44,399 nt of DNA. It comes from a virus. This document shows positions 9,723 to 32,085 of this stretch, in pieces (the stretch's first letter is position 1; each line of letters opens with the position of its first letter). A model generated the notes under the pieces. That model was not told where the DNA came from and ran no database searches. It saw only the letters and a program-made list of their open reading frames with translations. The position numbers and the translations under genes were made by a program. The DNA lies in the IMG/VR virus record IMGVR_UViG_3300028197_000030, positions 1 through 44,399 of that record. One strand, given 5' to 3'.

Positions 9723-10778
9723 ATGGTAGCATCAACATTACAACAACAAAGGAGGGGATGGTTTGACATACTCGACGACTGGCTCAAGCGGGATCGTTTC
9801 GTTTTTGTTGGCTGGTCTGGACTTCTTCTTCTACCCACTGCTTATCTCGCTATTGGGGGTTGGCTTACTGGTACGACTTTCGCAACGAGCTGGTATACCC
9901 ACGGTCTCGCTAGTTCCTATCTTGAGGGTGCAAACTTTCTTACAGCAGCAGTTTCGACTCCAGCTGACGCTATGGGTCATTCTCTTCTTCTTCTCTGGGG
10001 TCCTGAGGCTCAGGGCAGTTTCGTCCGTTGGATCCAACTTGGGGGACTCTGGAATTTTGTGGCACTCCACGGAGCCTTTGCTCTCATTGGTTTCATGCTT
10101 CGACAGTTTGAACTTTCTAGGTTAATTGGTATCCGTCCTTACAATGCTATTGCGTTTTCTGGTCCTATCGCTGTATTTGTCAGTGTCTTTCTTCTTTATC
10201 CATTGGGCCAGTCTTCATGGTTCTTTGCTCCCTCCTTTGGGGTAGCAGCAATCTTTAGATTCCTGTTGTTCCTTCAGGGTTTCCACAACTGGACCCTCAA
10301 CCCCTTCCATATGATGGGAGTTGCAGGTATCCTTGGTGGCGCATTACTATCTGCTATTCATGGAGTCACAGTTGAAAACACATTGTATGAAGATGGGGAT
10401 CAAGCAAACACCTTTAAGGGATTTGATTCAACACAAGAGGAGGAGACTTATTCTATGGTCACTGCAAACCGCTTCTGGTCGCAGATCTTCGGCATTGCGT
10501 TTTCTAACAAGCGTTGGCTTCATTTCTTCATGTTGTTTGTGCCTGTTATGGGTCTATGGACATCCTCTATTGGCATTATTGGTCTTGCTCTCAATCTTCG
10601 TGCTTACGATTTCGTGAGTCAGGAGATTCGTGCAGCAGAAGATCCTGAGTTTGAGACATTCTATACAAAGAATATCCTACTCAATGAAGGTCTTCGTGCA
10701 TGGTTAGCACCTGCTGATCAACCTCATGAAAATTTCATCTTCCCAGAAGAAGTACTGCCAAGAGGCAACGCATTGTGA
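9723..10778 (+). CDS. psbD: Photosystem II reaction centre protein D2
   Basis: The 351-residue protein is full-length D2: [21 protein letters not shown] at the first helix, [20 protein letters not shown] with the iron and chlorophyll ligands, and the conserved C terminus [11 protein letters not shown]. It pairs with D1 to hold P680, pheophytins and quinones. Carrying both psbA and psbD lets the phage renew the whole heterodimer. No ribosome-binding site is clear. The final TGA overlaps the GTG start of the DoxX gene (GTGA), so the two are translationally linked. Confidence 0.98.
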
Positions 10779-25096: not shown

Positions 25097-25599
25097 GTAT
25101 CTTTCAAGAGATAAGAGAACTAGCTGGTAACGAACCAAGATCATATTCTTGGTATCGTGATGCAGTAAGAATGAAATTTCAATCAGGTGATCTGTATTCA
25201 GATATGTCTGAGATGGAGGAGTCTATGATACCGACTCCGGGTGAACTTTATATGTTTGAATACAAGGCAACATATGCTGCAAAGTTGAAATTCTATGATG
25301 AGTTTCCACTTGTATATGTTCTGAGTACAGGTACAAAATTTTTTGGTGCCAACTTACATTATTTAAGACATAGATCTAGGATGAATATAATATTAGGATT
25401 AGAAAATGGTAGAGCTAGGTTCCCCAAACAATGTTATCATCATTATGTTGTAGCGGGACTAGAAACACCTCTTTATAAAATAAATAGAGAAGATTATAAA
25501 ACATCTATCTTCCTTCCTATTGAAAGTTTTGTCACTAGAAAGAATAATATGTATCAACAATATAGTAAATCAGCAGTCTGGGGAGAAACTTCACAATGA
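25093..25599 (+). CDS. Conserved virion-region protein, possible gp2-like DNA end protector
   Basis: The 168-residue protein has GELYMFEYKATYAAKLKFYD followed by FPLVYVLSTGTKFFGANLHYL, a pattern common to phage proteins near gp4. In T4 gene 2 (DNA end protector) is next to gene 4, so a gp2-like role is suggested by position; sequence evidence is weak. It overlaps both neighbours by four bases. Confidence 0.6.
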   Translation: MSIFQEIRELAGNEPRSYSWYRDAVRMKFQSGDLYSDMSEMEESMIPTPGELYMFEYKATYAAKLKFYDEFPLVYVLSTGTKFFGANLHYLRHRSRMNIILGLENGRARFPKQCYHHYVVAGLETPLYKINREDYKTSIFLPIESFVTRKNNMYQQYSKSAVWGETSQ

Positions 25600-26450
25600 G
25601 TAGAATATTTGGCGTAACGCCGATGTCGAACTATGCGACATTTAAAGAACAATTTAAAAGGTCTGGTTATAGTGCTAATAACTTCTATGATGTTATTATC
25701 GAACTAGATAGTAATCCAAAACTATTGAGACAACTCTCAAGAGATGAAGAATTTGATTTGCAACCATCAAAGAATTTACTTAGATTATATACTGATGAAG
25801 CTAGTATTCCTGGACTTCAAATTTCCACAGGTGATTATAGAATTACTAACACACCAAATTTAAAGTATGCTTATGGTGCAGTGTTTAGCGAAATGCAACT
25901 TTCTTTTATGATGGATGCAGACTCTAGAATTAAAAGTATATTTGATCTGTGGACTAATTGGATATATGGTTATGCAGATCAAGTTACAAGATTTCCTAAT
26001 CAAATTGAAAATATTTTTAGAACCCCAGCACCACAACAAAATTTTAGAGCAGCATATAGGGATGACTATACAGTTGATATATTGATCGTGAAGTATGAAA
26101 AATATATGAACGGTAAGAAAAATAGTATGAACCCAAATAATAAATCTCTTTCAATTCCGTTACGTGAAATAATACCAGATAGTCCAACTGAAAGAGGTAT
26201 AAGTGGCACTGGATTCTATAGATCAATACCAGTACATGCTGTGAAGTTATTTAATGCTTTCCCAAGTAATATTTCTTCTATGAGTCTTAGTAGAGAAGAA
26301 ACATCTATATCAAAATTATCAGTTGGTTTTGAATATGAAACTTATACAACTACAACATTTAATGATAACTCTACAATAAATTTCAGAGATCCTATAAATG
26401 GTGGCGGGGAATTAGATATTATAGATACCTTATTAGGAATTCTTTCATAA
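25596..26450 (+). CDS. Tail tube-like baseplate protein, probably gp54
   Basis: The 284-residue protein has a tube-like fold pattern: SGYSANNFYDVIIELDSN, then IPGLQISTGDYRITNTPNLK and KYAYGAVFSEMQLSFMMDAD, found in phage tail tube and tube initiator proteins. Position beside gp48 and gp53 fits gp54, the initiator under the gp48 cap. The identity as gp54 and not another tube paralogue rests on context. A late promoter follows it. Confidence 0.68.
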   Translation: MSRIFGVTPMSNYATFKEQFKRSGYSANNFYDVIIELDSNPKLLRQLSRDEEFDLQPSKNLLRLYTDEASIPGLQISTGDYRITNTPNLKYAYGAVFSEMQLSFMMDADSRIKSIFDLWTNWIYGYADQVTRFPNQIENIFRTPAPQQNFRAAYRDDYTVDILIVKYEKYMNGKKNSMNPNNKSLSIPLREIIPDSPTERGISGTGFYRSIPVHAVKLFNAFPSNISSMSLSREETSISKLSVGFEYETYTTTTFNDNSTINFRDPINGGGELDIIDTLLGILS

Positions 26451-26489: not shown

Positions 26490-27206
26490 ATGGCTTTACC
26501 AAAACTTTCTACCCCAACATATGAGTTGGAAATTCCATCTACTAAAAAGAAGATTAAATATAGACCTTTCCTAGTCAAAGAAGAAAAAATTCTTTTACTT
26601 GCTATGGAGACTGAAGATGAGAAACAGATGGCAAATGCAGTCAAAACTATTTTGACTAACTGCATTCAAACTCCAAGATTTAAAATTGATGATCTTGCTT
26701 TATTTGATATTGAATATATCTTTTTGAATATTAGGGGGAAATCAGTTGGAGAATCTGTAGATTTACAAGTCACATGTCCAGATGACAATGAAACTACAGT
26801 TGGTATAACTATCGATTTAGATGATATTAATGTTAGTAAGAGTGATGATCACACAAATATCTTAAAGATGGATGATACTATATCAGTTGTGATGAAGTAT
26901 CCAAGTATGGATTTATTCATTAAAAATAATATGTCTGATGATGCATCTGAAGTTGATGATATTTTTGAAATTGCATCTATGTGTATACATCAAATTGTAG
27001 ATGGTGAAGAAGTGTATGAAGCTTCAAATTCTTCTAAGAAAGAAATTAATGAATTTTTAGAAGGTATGGATACCCAACAATTCTTGAAGGTTCAGAGTTT
27101 CTTTGAGACTATGCCAAAATTATCACATACGGTTTCAGTCACCAATCCAAATACTAAAGTAAAAAGTGATGTAGTAATTGAGGGACTAGCAAGTTTTTTC
27201 TCATAG
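26490..27206 (+). CDS. 26: Gp26-like baseplate hub assembly protein
   Basis: The 238-residue protein resembles T4 gp26 (208 residues): LPKLSTPTYELEIPSTKKKI, then RPFLVKEEKILLLAMETEDE, then IFLNIRGKSVGE. Such proteins help assemble the hub. The last sense codons are AGT TTT TTC TCA before TAG. T TTT TTC is a classical -1 slippery site, and the -1 frame continues into the gp51 sequence. Two products are therefore expected: gp26 alone and a gp26-gp51 fusion. Confidence 0.88.
   Translation: MALPKLSTPTYELEIPSTKKKIKYRPFLVKEEKILLLAMETEDEKQMANAVKTILTNCIQTPRFKIDDLALFDIEYIFLNIRGKSVGESVDLQVTCPDDNETTVGITIDLDDINVSKSDDHTNILKMDDTISVVMKYPSMDLFIKNNMSDDASEVDDIFEIASMCIHQIVDGEEVYEASNSSKKEINEFLEGMDTQQFLKVQSFFETMPKLSHTVSVTNPNTKVKSDVVIEGLASFFS
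27194..27200 (+). promoter_or_regulatory. Probable -1 ribosomal frameshift site
   Basis: The heptamer T TTT TTC is in register (X XXY YYZ) with the gp26 frame, three codons before its stop is reached. A slip of -1 leads to CTC ATA GCC and on into gp51. A weak TCAT/ATGA pairing (27201-27219) follows; no strong hairpin is seen. Confidence 0.7.
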
Positions 27207-27385
27207 CCCTATCTCATGAAAGTCTTGAAAATTTCTACAAGGTTAATTTTTCATTGATGCAACACCATAAATATAGTTTAACTGAATTGGATAATATGAT
27301 TCCCTGGGAAAGGGAAATTTATGTAACTATGTTAGTGGAATATATTAAAGAAGAAAACGAACGTCAAAAGAAACAACAGAGTTAA
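27200..27385 (+). CDS. 51: Gp51-like baseplate hub chaperone, expressed as a -1 frameshift extension of gp26
   Basis: The frame reads LIALSHESLENFYKVNFSLM, then QHHKYSLTELDNMIPWEREI and VTMLVEYIKEENERQKKQQS, which fits the gp51 chaperone of cyanomyoviruses. The conserved part starts well upstream of its first in-frame ATG, and the frame is closed by a TGA at 27179, so no independent start can produce the whole domain. The start given here is the first codon after the proposed slip. The complete fusion would have about 298 residues (26490-27385). A C-terminal Lys/Glu helix ends the protein two bases before the next gene's ATG. Confidence 0.75.
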   Translation, partial: LIALSHESLENFYKVNFSLMQHHKYSLTELDNMIPWEREIYVTMLVEYIKEENERQKKQQS

Positions 27386-27386
27386 T

Positions 27387-29777
27387 ATGCCCGCACCAGC
27401 AGCTGCAGCAATAATACCCTTAATCAAAGGACTCTTAGCATCAAGTGCTAAGGGAGTCGTTGCTGGAGCAGGCCGCAGTGCTTTGATGACGGGTGTTAAA
27501 GCGGGAGCTAAGGGCGGATTAAGTCAAGGAATTAAATCAGGAGTAAGACAAGGCGCAAGAAACACCATGCGAGGTGGTGTAATGGGAGATGGTCGTAAAG
27601 ACAATCGTAGTGATGGATTAGTTAAACAAACAAATGACTCTGCTATTACTAGATCTGAGAATGGTGGTCTTGCTGTACAAGGTAGAACTATTAAAGAGGG
27701 CGGATATACTGCATCAGCAGGTCCAAAAAGTAAAAAATCTTTAGCGATTGTAAAAACTGGTCCAGCAAAAGATAACATATTAGGTTTACTGGAACAAATA
27801 AAGAAAACTGCAGATAATATTTTTGAGATTGAAGTAAAAGAATTAGATAATGATAATAAAGAATATAAAGATACTAAAAAAGAAAAAGAAAAGGAAAGAA
27901 AATTATTAGAAGCTGAAAAAAGAGATGAGGAAGAGGAAGATCAGGAAGCTAAAAAAGCAAAGAAAGGAAAAAGAAAATCAAATCCTGTAGTAAAAGCTGC
28001 AAAGAACGGCATTGGTAATATATTTAAATTTTTAATTGATCTCTTTAAAGATTTTGTTGTAATAAAAGTTCTGGATTGGATCGCAAATCCAAAAAATAAA
28101 GAGAAGGTACATCAATTAGTTAAGTTCATTGGAATGATACCAAAGATTTTTTCATTCTTGTGGGATCATTTTATTGGACCTTGGTCTAAGTTTGCAATGT
28201 CTTTGTTCGGAGGACAATTTAAAATACTAGGAGCTTTCTTTAATGTAATTAAAGATCTTCTTACACTCAAATGGTTGACGAATCCAGGCGAGTTCATGAA
28301 TACATTATTAGAAATTCCTAAAACTTTACTGAGTGTAATACCAGGAATTCTTGGGTCGTTATTAAACGCAATGACTTTCGGAGTGATCGGAAAGATTGGT
28401 GACTTAGTATCAGGATTATTTAATAGTCCATTGAAAGGAATTGATTTTGGTAACGTTGGTAGTCTTCTTGGAAATGCTGCAAATTTTGTCAAAGGATTGC
28501 TTGGTAATGCTTGGGGTGGTATTTCTGGTTTCTTTGGTGGTTTGTTTGGTCACGGTGTGGAACCAGATCCACCAAAGAAACCAGAACCAGAAACATCTCA
28601 GACACCTTCCCCACCCGCGCCTTCCCCACCCGCGCCTTCCCCTACAACTACTACACTTGGAGCATCTGGTGCTACTAGTAAACAACCAACTGTAGGAGCT
28701 AAAAAAGCAAAGACCTCAATTAAATCTTTAGATGCATCTCAGAAAAAGTTTGATAAGATGGTTGGTAACCAGGGAACTGGTGAGACGATTAAATTTAAAA
28801 ATGTTGGTAGTTTTGTAAGCGGGAAAAATTTCTTTGGTCAAGGTGAAGATAAGTATTTTGATCCTGAAGGAAATCCTCTCCAAAAAGAAGAATTTATGGC
28901 TACAATTTCCTCACAGAGGAAAAGATTTACCAAACTATCGGGGGATACAGAAACTGTTCCTGTAAAAACTGAAACAGATGGAAGTATGAGTGATCTTGCA
29001 GGAATGCAAAGGTCTATTAATGATGAGGAACGGGCCCTCGCTGGCGCTCGCGGCGGTGGTGGTAATCCATATGGTATGGAAGTAACTTCAACGATGGGAA
29101 ATAGGTCACTTACTTTATCTCCTGGTTTACATATGGGAATTGATATTAGTAATGGTAAATCTGGAGCACCACTTCAAGCGTTTACTGATGCAACTATTAC
29201 TGGTGTTGGTGTTGATTCTGGTTATGGTAACTGGGTTGCATGGACAGACACTACTGGTTTAGAAAACTTCTATGCTCATATGAAAGCACCATCTCCATAT
29301 AAAAATGGAGATAAAGTAAAGGCGGGAACTAAAATTGGTATTGTGGGGGATACTGGAAGAGGGACAGGACCACATTTACATTGGGAAGTTTCTGCAAAAC
29401 CAGGTGACACTGGTATGCCAAAGTCATCAGTTCGTTCTAGAATTAATCCTCTAACAAAGTATGCTCATACTGCACCATTTGGTGGATCAACAGCACCAGT
29501 TGAAGGGTCATCAACACCACCACCCCCGCCGAAACTTCCACCGCCTCCTGGATCTACTCCTCCAAATTTGGGATCAACTTCACCAAGAACAGGATCTAAT
29601 TTAGGTTCTGCACAACAGGAGAGTAGATCCTTATCTTCACCATCAACTCAACAAAAAACCCCTACTGTTATTAACAATTCATCATCTACTCAGTCTGTAT
29701 CAGAAAACAGTGAAGGATTTTCTGGTAGTATACTTCCTACTTCTGGGCTATGGTCAATTTACAGTTATCAGTTATAA
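27387..29777 (+). CDS. Large tail protein with M23 peptidase domain
   Basis: The 796-residue protein is modular. The N terminus is Ala/Gly-rich (1-110). A Lys/Glu coiled stretch follows (about 150-205), then a hydrophobic region (205-390) paralogous to the next protein (VLDWIANPKNKEK), a Pro-rich linker (406-418) and an M23 endopeptidase domain (about 560-700). The zinc ligands are His582 and Asp586 (HMGID) and HLHWE (663-667). A Pro-rich tail follows. M23 enzymes cut peptide bridges of peptidoglycan. Position among hub genes suggests a tail component for wall penetration. Confidence 0.82.
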   Translation: MPAPAAAAIIPLIKGLLASSAKGVVAGAGRSALMTGVKAGAKGGLSQGIKSGVRQGARNTMRGGVMGDGRKDNRSDGLVKQTNDSAITRSENGGLAVQGRTIKEGGYTASAGPKSKKSLAIVKTGPAKDNILGLLEQIKKTADNIFEIEVKELDNDNKEYKDTKKEKEKERKLLEAEKRDEEEEDQEAKKAKKGKRKSNPVVKAAKNGIGNIFKFLIDLFKDFVVIKVLDWIANPKNKEKVHQLVKFIGMIPKIFSFLWDHFIGPWSKFAMSLFGGQFKILGAFFNVIKDLLTLKWLTNPGEFMNTLLEIPKTLLSVIPGILGSLLNAMTFGVIGKIGDLVSGLFNSPLKGIDFGNVGSLLGNAANFVKGLLGNAWGGISGFFGGLFGHGVEPDPPKKPEPETSQTPSPPAPSPPAPSPTTTTLGASGATSKQPTVGAKKAKTSIKSLDASQKKFDKMVGNQGTGETIKFKNVGSFVSGKNFFGQGEDKYFDPEGNPLQKEEFMATISSQRKRFTKLSGDTETVPVKTETDGSMSDLAGMQRSINDEERALAGARGGGGNPYGMEVTSTMGNRSLTLSPGLHMGIDISNGKSGAPLQAFTDATITGVGVDSGYGNWVAWTDTTGLENFYAHMKAPSPYKNGDKVKAGTKIGIVGDTGRGTGPHLHWEVSAKPGDTGMPKSSVRSRINPLTKYAHTAPFGGSTAPVEGSSTPPPPPKLPPPPGSTPPNLGSTSPRTGSNLGSAQQESRSLSSPSTQQKTPTVINNSSSTQSVSENSEGFSGSILPTSGLWSIYSYQL
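28606..28642 (+). repeat. GC-rich 15-base direct repeat in the linker
   Basis: CTTCCCCACCCGCGC occurs twice in tandem (28606-28620, 28621-28635) with a partial third copy to 28642. It encodes PSPPAPSPPAPSP. It is far GC-richer than the surrounding AT-rich gene and might vary in copy number. Confidence 0.85.
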
Positions 29778-29781
29778 GTAA

Positions 29782-32085
29782 ATGTCAGATATTAACGTAA
29801 CAGCTCATGGTATAAATCCAGAAACAGGTGAATATCTTTCGCCATCGGAGAGAAAAGCCCTCTTTAAGAAGAGGAAGATGGGTTCTAAAATTAACACAGA
29901 TGTTTTCAAAAGTGGTGTTGTCTCTGGTGTTAGAGCAGCACAGAAGGTAAAACAAAAAGCAGAATCTGATGTTGGAGATTTTGTTGATCTCGAACGTGAG
30001 TTAAATAAACTAAATGATAAAGCTGCTGGAGATGGCGGAAAGGGTGGTGGTATTTCTGCTATTGTTCCGTTTTCTAATATATCTTCTGGTAATTCTGTAA
30101 AAGAACCTGTAGAAAAAGTAAGAGTTAACGTTGATGATGCACCACCAGAACAAGCTGAAGAATCAAAAGAATCTTTTAAGGATGCTCTTAAGAAGTTATT
30201 AGAAACTTTAAAAAAAGTAACTAGAATAAAATCAAAACAAAAAAAATCTTCTGGCAAAACTAAGAAGGTAAATGAGAAAGGTAAGACAGGAAAAAAGAAA
30301 GAACGAAAAACTTCTGGTAGAGATATATTTGGTATTGGTAGAAAAATTAAAGGTAAGGTATCAAAAACACTGGGGGATGTCTTTGGAATTTTTGGTGATA
30401 TTATAGCGTTTGCAGCTCTAAATTGGATTGCTGATCCGAAGAATAAGAAAATAGTAAAAGGCATTTTTGAATTTTTAGGACACGCTTTTAAATTTATTAA
30501 TTTCTTTGTAGGAGCATTTGTTGATAATGCAATGACTGGGTTGTCTCAACTTCTTGGACCTGATAGAAGTATGGGTGAGAGGTTTTTTGGTGCTCTCCGT
30601 TTAATAACAGGATTTTTTCTACTCAGATGGATTAAAAAACCATGGAAGGTAGTTAAGGATATAAAAAGAATTACTAAAGTATTCGGTAAGTTTAGTAAAT
30701 TTGTAAACAAAATTTTTAAAAAACCAATTCAGTTTATTCAAAATTTTGTTCAGAAAGCTTTAAATAAAACTATAGGTAAAGTTTTTAAAGGTGCTCTCTT
30801 TAAACCACTTAGAAGATTTATTATTCAGGTTGGCGGCAAGAGTTTAATTAAACTATTGGGAGCCGTTGGTAGAGGATTCGTAAAAATTATAAGTAGAGTT
30901 CCTTTCATTGGTGCTCTCTTAGAATTCTTTATGGATGTTTTCTTATTTAAAAAACCTCCTATGCGATCTGGATTTAAAGCTATTGGTGCCGCATTACTTG
31001 GTGCTGTTGGTATGATTGGTGGTCCAATAGGTTCTATTATTGGTGGATGGGTTGGTGGTGAAGCTGGCGGGTGGTTATATGATGCTTGGTTTGGTCAAGG
31101 TCATAACCCAGATGACCCGAAAGATGAAGATGGTAAAAAGAAATCTGAAAAAGATTCTGAAAGTGCAACACCAAAAATGATGTCTGAGAATGAATTCTAC
31201 AATACAAGAGTAGATGCAGATACAGACTCAAATTCATATGATCTTCTTTTGGGAGCAGATACATATGGAGAATATACGGCAAGATTTACATCACCAGGAC
31301 AACAAACTGCTACAACTATGGCAGATGGTGCTATTAATCAACAGGCATCTTTACTATTACGTAACTATGAAGGTTTAGAATTGAATGCATATCCTGATCC
31401 AGCTACAAAGGCTGAACCATATACAATTGGTATTGGTGCAACATATTATCCACCAGGATTTAGATTAGCAGGAAGACCGGGAAATAAAGTTGAACTAGGT
31501 GATACAATTACCGAAGCAGAAGCGTATGAAATTAAAAGATATCATGTAAACCAATTTGCTTCATCAGCAGAATCTAAGATTGGTTCTGGGACATGGAATA
31601 AACTACCAGCAGGTGTGAAGGTTGCTTTAATATCAAAAGCATTTAATTATGGAGAGGTTTATGATTCTGCCATACCTCTAATAGAATCTGGCGCTGATAC
31701 AGGAGACTTCTCTGATCTAGCAGGTTACTTTAGTAATAGATTAGCAAAACATAATAATGGTATAAACAGTTGGAGAAGAAATGATGAAGCATCTGTAATT
31801 CTAACTAACTCAAGTCCACGAGCTAATCTGGCATTTGGTGGGGGTTCTGGGATGGTAAGACCTAAACAATCTATTGCTAAATTAACAAAAATTCCAGTAA
31901 GGAATTCATCTATGCCATCAGATAGTAAGTCGTTTGCAATAGACGAAAAAATAAAATCTAATGGTGCAATGGAATTACCAATTGTCATAAACAACGTACA
32001 AGAAAATATAGCTAGATTCTCTATCACCACTTTGACTCTAAATAACAATAGGATGCCTGTCAATCAAGTCCTTAGTAGGTTATAA
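29782..32085 (+). CDS. Large tail protein with GH24 lysozyme domain
   Basis: The 767-residue protein shares the middle region of its neighbour (LNWIADPKNKKIVKGIFEFL, about residues 205-300). It adds a Lys/Glu-rich stretch (120-190) and a Gly-zipper hydrophobic part (GGPIGSIIGGWVGGEAGGWL). A T4-lysozyme-type domain (about 515-680) has catalytic Glu530 in RNYEG, then YTIGIGATYYP, and FNYGE. GH24 enzymes cleave the glycan strand. In T4 this activity sits inside gp5; here it is in a separate tail protein. Confidence 0.82.
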   Translation: MSDINVTAHGINPETGEYLSPSERKALFKKRKMGSKINTDVFKSGVVSGVRAAQKVKQKAESDVGDFVDLERELNKLNDKAAGDGGKGGGISAIVPFSNISSGNSVKEPVEKVRVNVDDAPPEQAEESKESFKDALKKLLETLKKVTRIKSKQKKSSGKTKKVNEKGKTGKKKERKTSGRDIFGIGRKIKGKVSKTLGDVFGIFGDIIAFAALNWIADPKNKKIVKGIFEFLGHAFKFINFFVGAFVDNAMTGLSQLLGPDRSMGERFFGALRLITGFFLLRWIKKPWKVVKDIKRITKVFGKFSKFVNKIFKKPIQFIQNFVQKALNKTIGKVFKGALFKPLRRFIIQVGGKSLIKLLGAVGRGFVKIISRVPFIGALLEFFMDVFLFKKPPMRSGFKAIGAALLGAVGMIGGPIGSIIGGWVGGEAGGWLYDAWFGQGHNPDDPKDEDGKKKSEKDSESATPKMMSENEFYNTRVDADTDSNSYDLLLGADTYGEYTARFTSPGQQTATTMADGAINQQASLLLRNYEGLELNAYPDPATKAEPYTIGIGATYYPPGFRLAGRPGNKVELGDTITEAEAYEIKRYHVNQFASSAESKIGSGTWNKLPAGVKVALISKAFNYGEVYDSAIPLIESGADTGDFSDLAGYFSNRLAKHNNGINSWRRNDEASVILTNSSPRANLAFGGGSGMVRPKQSIAKLTKIPVRNSSMPSDSKSFAIDEKIKSNGAMELPIVINNVQENIARFSITTLTLNNNRMPVNQVLSRL

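Follow-up and report, generated by a model that had tools for sequence, protein, structure and literature searches.

We analyzed a 44,399-nucleotide stretch of viral DNA (IMG/VR record IMGVR_UViG_3300028197_000030), hereafter the window. It carries psbA, encoding the photosystem II D1 protein, at positions 9723-10778 (phrog_182, 3.2e-176), which identifies the window as cyanophage DNA. The locus examined here contains a gene homologous to T4 gene 26, an overlapping reading frame related to gp51, and the following features:

25596..26450, + strand: tail-tube-like gene (gp54-like), upstream of gp26 (Phage_TTP_2, 3.1e-12; phrog_45 tail tube, 9.1e-27)
26490..27206, + strand: gp26, likely the short tail assembly chaperone (TAC-N), 238 aa (PF12322 T4_baseplate, 1.3e-72; phrog_150, 9.8e-80)
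27179..27181, + strand: TGA closing the -1 frame upstream (read from the sequence)
27180..27184, + strand: SD-like GAGGG, 9 nt 5' of the heptamer, a putative upstream stimulator
27182..27385, + strand: -1 frame ORF, gp51 or likely TAC-C (phrog_634, 4e-30; an HMM of such extensions matches the C-terminus of T4-type gp51)
27194..27200, + strand: slippery heptamer T TTT TTC (all 149 non-redundant loci have TTTTTTN in this register)
27204..27206, + strand: TAG, zero-frame stop of gp26 (read from the sequence)
27387..29777, + strand: protein of 796 aa with an M23 peptidase domain (Peptidase_M23, 3e-20), candidate tape measure or tail lysin

The gp26 gene ends in GCA AGT TTT TTC TCA TAG. Its T TTT TTC lies in the X XXY YYZ register, and a single codon (TCA) separates the heptamer from the TAG. 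The -1 ORF is bounded by the TGA at 27179 and by a TAA, ends at 27385, and belongs to PHROG 634, "baseplate hub assembly catalyst". No ATG, GTG or TTG was found in this frame ahead of the conserved core SHESLENFYKVNF, and the earliest usual start codons, TTG at 27254 and ATG at 27257, are both located 3' of it. These observations confirm the first-pass annotation, which had described a slippery run near the gp26 stop, an open gp51-like -1 frame, and a gp51 that no normal start could produce. The fusion predicted from a slip on the heptamer, with -1 reading from 27200, has 298 aa. PHROG 150 spans 282 positions and its final part matches the -1 extension, indicating that fused members are already present in that family. 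Beside gp26 in the 44 kb window there is only a 67-codon ORF with no start, and not a full-length gp51 (about 250 aa) that includes a gp26-like N-terminal domain. The gp26 of another IMG/VR contig (L001) is identical to that of the window.

The heptamer alone is weak evidence, since about 50 XXXYYYN motifs occur in frame in the 8315 codons of the window. To evaluate its conservation, we sampled loci from IMG/VR (80 + 80 + 80 + 1 + 2) and from GenBank records. The T run was found in 255 loci, which were reduced to 149 non-redundant ones by clustering at 90% gp26 identity; among the sampled loci it was missing only from four Ackermannviridae-type phages and from a broken record of a Menderavirus. 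A Vibrio query against viral contigs gave no confirmed relatives. The slip run was present in 84/84 relatives of the first set, and TTTTTTN occurs in frame near the gp26 stop in all 149 loci (last base C in 123, T in 21, A in 5). This conservation lifts the heptamer above chance. The -1 extension is open over 56-69 aa in 149/149, while the medians for frames 0 and +1 are 1 aa and 6 aa.

The codon 5' of the run encodes Ser, Asp, Asn, Ala or Thr, with T as third base throughout the 149 loci, and in five loci the second Phe codon has become Leu TTA with all six T preserved. Of the 154 further Phe-Phe pairs that these genes encode, just 3 are slippery, and the T run is unchanged throughout the gp26 tree. 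A naive codon-usage estimate put the probability of the run at 10^-52, which is too extreme because it ignores the shared ancestry of the sequences. Taken together, these data strongly support the proposal of the first-pass annotation that a -1 frameshift joins gp26 and gp51.

An alternative is that a sequencing error created the frame change, or that the extension is a decayed gene; homopolymer runs are error-prone. One case of this kind was seen in Menderavirus: the slip site of L263 (2245-2260) is one T shorter than that of the near-identical L262, which pushes gp26 into the +1 frame, and either an error in sequencing or a damaged copy probably explains this loss. However, 149 loci, from both isolates and metagenomes, share one frame relation, with the extension intact in every one. 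Since every assembly shows this run in this frame relation, sequencing error, which the annotation had named as a threat to its reading, is excluded, and error or decay as a whole has a negligible probability.

We then asked whether gp51 has its own start. It could be a separate small protein, translationally coupled to the gp26 stop, with the T run being incidental. An ATG just 3' of the gp26 stop is indeed present in 65/149 loci, and gp51 is annotated as a gene in GenBank records. The Ackermannviridae-type phages (L088, L091, L096, L097) also fit this explanation: they have no X XXY YYZ heptamer but carry a small gp51-like ORF directly 3' of gp26, joined by TAATG in three of the four (L097 is without it). 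Slippage is thus not the universal way of making the long form, and another route exists in these phages. On the other hand, 80/149 loci have no ATG, GTG or TTG among codons 1-7 of the extension, including the window clade, pf16, Melnitz, Mosig, Rhizobium LG08, S-CAM1, and the Aeromonas phages AS-yj, 65, phiAS5 and Aeh1. On the gp26 tree, the ATG switched between present and absent at least 10 times, and all 149 lineages have the heptamer, with or without this ATG. Where an ATG exists, it lacks the signal expected of a start: SD matches of at least 5 nt precede it in 0/65 loci and of 4 nt in 1/65, compared with matches of at least 4 nt before the start of gp26 itself in 101/142. In the 34 loci of the P-SSM2-like group, the ATG sits in the 5' arm of a hairpin stem. 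Finally, both domains form one polypeptide in T4, as described below. A separate gp51 start is thus disfavoured, and we regard this explanation as very improbable.

A combination of the two routes is easier to entertain, with the fusion made by frameshifting everywhere and a free gp51 domain made in addition where an ATG exists. The similarly placed ATG in 65/149 lineages speaks for it, but the missing SD does not, and some lineages may keep the ATG for the stem or for a Met residue. It is also inapplicable to the window, which has no such ATG. We consider this combination unlikely, though less so than a separate gp51 alone. The comparison of gp26/gp51 junctions that the first-pass annotation had suggested bore out the heptamer (149/149) and only partly the missing start. 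For the contrary evidence that it had listed, homologues with a gp51 start and no slippery site, the outcome was mixed: many relatives have an ATG, though one with no SD, and none of the 149 is without the slip site.

In the Aeromonas phages Aeh1 (L098, 2283-2456), 65 (L099, 2277-2444), phiAS5 (L100, 2262-2432) and AS-yj (L090, 4702-4873), T TTT TTC is kept and the gp51 extension is unannotated or annotated only as a fragment.

To search for elements that may stimulate the slip, we examined the sequences on both sides of the heptamer. Upstream, the relatives carry GGN, mostly after GA or AA, 8-10 nt before the heptamer. GG occupies this SD-like position in 148-149 of the 149 relatives, and the same bases encode a conserved Gly. 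SD matches of at least 5 nt were found upstream of the heptamer in 42% of loci versus 27% in synonymous resampling, a modest excess, given the conservation of the Gly codon itself. On the downstream side, the sequences have a lower folding energy than their synonymous resamplings (mean z -2.0, with 55% at p<=0.05), and the ATG-bearing class holds most of this signal (mean z -3.0 vs -1.2). An 11 bp stem located five bases 3' of the heptamer was found in the 34 P-SSM2-like loci. This fixed stem shows little covariation within the group and is therefore supported mainly by the comparison with synonymous resamplings. In the window, no downstream structure was convincing (z +0.6), and close relatives of the window differ in this respect. 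We rejected a hairpin common to all lineages, as the structure is strong in the P-SSM2-like group and absent in the window and in the Aeromonas phages.

In three marine loci (L109, L111 and L158) the heptamer is U UUU UUA, and a hairpin of 8 bp follows shortly 3'. The arms of this hairpin covary (GGACTCTC/GAGAGTCT, GGACTATC/GATAGTCT and GGACTTTC/GAAAGTCT).

The T4-type phages provided a reciprocal test. T4 gp26 (208 aa) and gp51 (249 aa) are encoded on opposite strands, and PF12322 matches both over their full length. We built an HMM from the -1 extensions alone and ran it against T4-type gp51 and gp26. It matched the C-terminal part of gp51, from about residue 199 to the C-terminus, in 7/7 phages (T4, Aeromonas phage 31, PhT2, SFHK24, phiP4-3, PEi26 and RB43; E 6e-11 to 1e-5), and gave no significant match to the T4-type gp26s. 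The two sets of matches indicate that T4-type gp51 is the same two-domain protein as the frameshift fusion. The T run was found in the gp26 of 0/6 T4-type phages with a full-length gp51, as expected if the latter makes slippage unnecessary; T4 gp26 has GAG TTC TTT GAG, which is not slippery. It was reported in 2010 that cyanophage and marine vibriophage gp51 is without the first ~200 residues, that cyanophage gp51 is about 20% of normal length, and that gp51 is missing from Aeh1 (PMC3037559). The frameshift arrangement accounts for both oddities, the shortness of gp51 in cyanophages and its apparent absence from Aeh1, where the extension is present though unannotated.

The first-pass annotation had assigned the fusion to baseplate hub assembly. 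Our data fit better with a short and a long chaperone that would escort the tape measure protein, and its analogy with lambda G/GT and P2 E/E' is strongly supported. As in lambda gpG/gpGT and P2 E/E+E', two adjacent ORFs overlap, a -1 slip would occur near the end of the first, and the long form consists of the N-terminal domain and a C-terminal extension. Three features of a frameshifted TAC are present: a second ORF in the -1 frame overlaps the gp26 3' end, a slippery sequence in the overlap is conserved (TTTTTTN, 149/149), and T4-type gp51 carries both parts as one protein within the family. The locus lies between a tube-like gene upstream and long genes downstream, for proteins of 796 and 767 aa, that are candidate tape measure genes. 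The shared N-terminal domain and this neighbourhood fit tail assembly chaperones. Unlike lambda and P2, the heptamer is T-rich here, and no sequence kinship to those systems was detectable in the searches made.

The 796 aa protein matches endolysin and tape-measure PHROG families, the latter through its peptidase domain. The adjoining protein of 767 aa (29782-32085) has an endolysin-like domain and is another candidate tape measure or tail lysin. The N-terminal halves of both match other PHROG families that are uncharacterised or labelled "endolysin".

A sequence search of the PDB returned nothing significant, and neither did a structural search with the AF2 model of gp26 (pLDDT 85). Among the matches listed in the structural search, the best probabilities were those of the HK97 TAC structure 2ob9 (0.47, E 1.4, rank 3) and of 3fgx (0.41, E >1). 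The predicted fold thus weakly recalls the HK97 TAC, a resemblance that is suggestive only. Overall, gp26/gp51 likely represent a short and a long tail assembly chaperone (TAC-N/TAC-NC) and not a special hub fusion, and "gp26" and "gp51" are the T4 names for these same two isoforms.

Based on these results, we propose that gp26 and "gp51" of the window would be one gene. The majority of ribosomes would stop at the TAG at 27204 and yield TAC-N of 238 aa. A minority would slip by -1 on T TTT TTC, where the P-site TTT and the A-site TTC would re-pair with TTT TTT, and would read on through CTC ATA GCC CTA to 27385, yielding the TAC-NC fusion of 298 aa with a junction of SFF-LIALSHESLENFYK. Both isoforms would serve tail assembly, where they would most likely hold the tape measure protein. 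We infer the slip itself, its rate and the tape measure binding; sequence comparison shows that the slip site, its frame relation and the extension are conserved, that the start codon is dispensable, and that T4 gp51 is the same two-domain protein encoded by a separate gene. The frameshift is very probably real, and we have high confidence in the reading of one gene with two chaperone isoforms that both act in tail assembly.

Frameshifting at this locus reportedly appears conserved in several T4-like groups, and T4 is said to use separate genes 26 and 51. The first-pass annotation had held the arrangement not to be established, which needs correction, as it has been reported computationally in T4-like phages from 2022 onward and the novelty here is limited. 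According to papers that cite their work, Vladimirov, Gautam and Davidson (2022, Virology 566:9-15) identified the TAC genes of T4-like phages, with the same logic of short and long isoforms as in the window. The PRFect paper (PMC10885494) refers to them on T4-like phages in which the short TAC and the fused long TAC have separate genes, and the phage Adele paper (PMC12846349, 2025) on poly-T signals for -1 shifts within the TAC-N genes of T4-like phages. The Vandenendeviridae/Andersonviridae TAC locus of phage Adele also has a T-rich slippery motif and a family-wide open -1 frame, though the motif is GTTTTT and the families differ from that of the window (PMC12846349). Compared with the T4-like TAC genes of 2022, we show that the gp51 start is absent here, map its loss over 149 lineages and examine the possible stimulators. 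What is new is the scale of the conservation, the clade-specific downstream hairpin (not in the window), the SD-like element located 9 nt 5' of the heptamer, and the reciprocal T4 test.

The gp51 extension occurs in 598 phage records, and all those inspected in detail either treat gp51 as a separate gene, label it a hypothetical protein or omit it; a large annotation class is thereby corrected. We find it somewhat probable that the slip site is fixed in T4-like phages while its helpers turn over: the P-SSM2-like 11 bp hairpin would contain the annotated gp51 start, the window lineage would shift with no clear downstream structure, the short cyanophage "gp51 gene" would not be a gene, and T4 would have escaped frameshifting by gene duplication. 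By domain content, T4 gp26 and gp51 are the same two proteins, although encoded by two genes on opposite strands and with TTC TTT instead of a slippery run in gp26. The same short and long chaperone pair would thus be made in two ways, by slippage or from duplicated genes.
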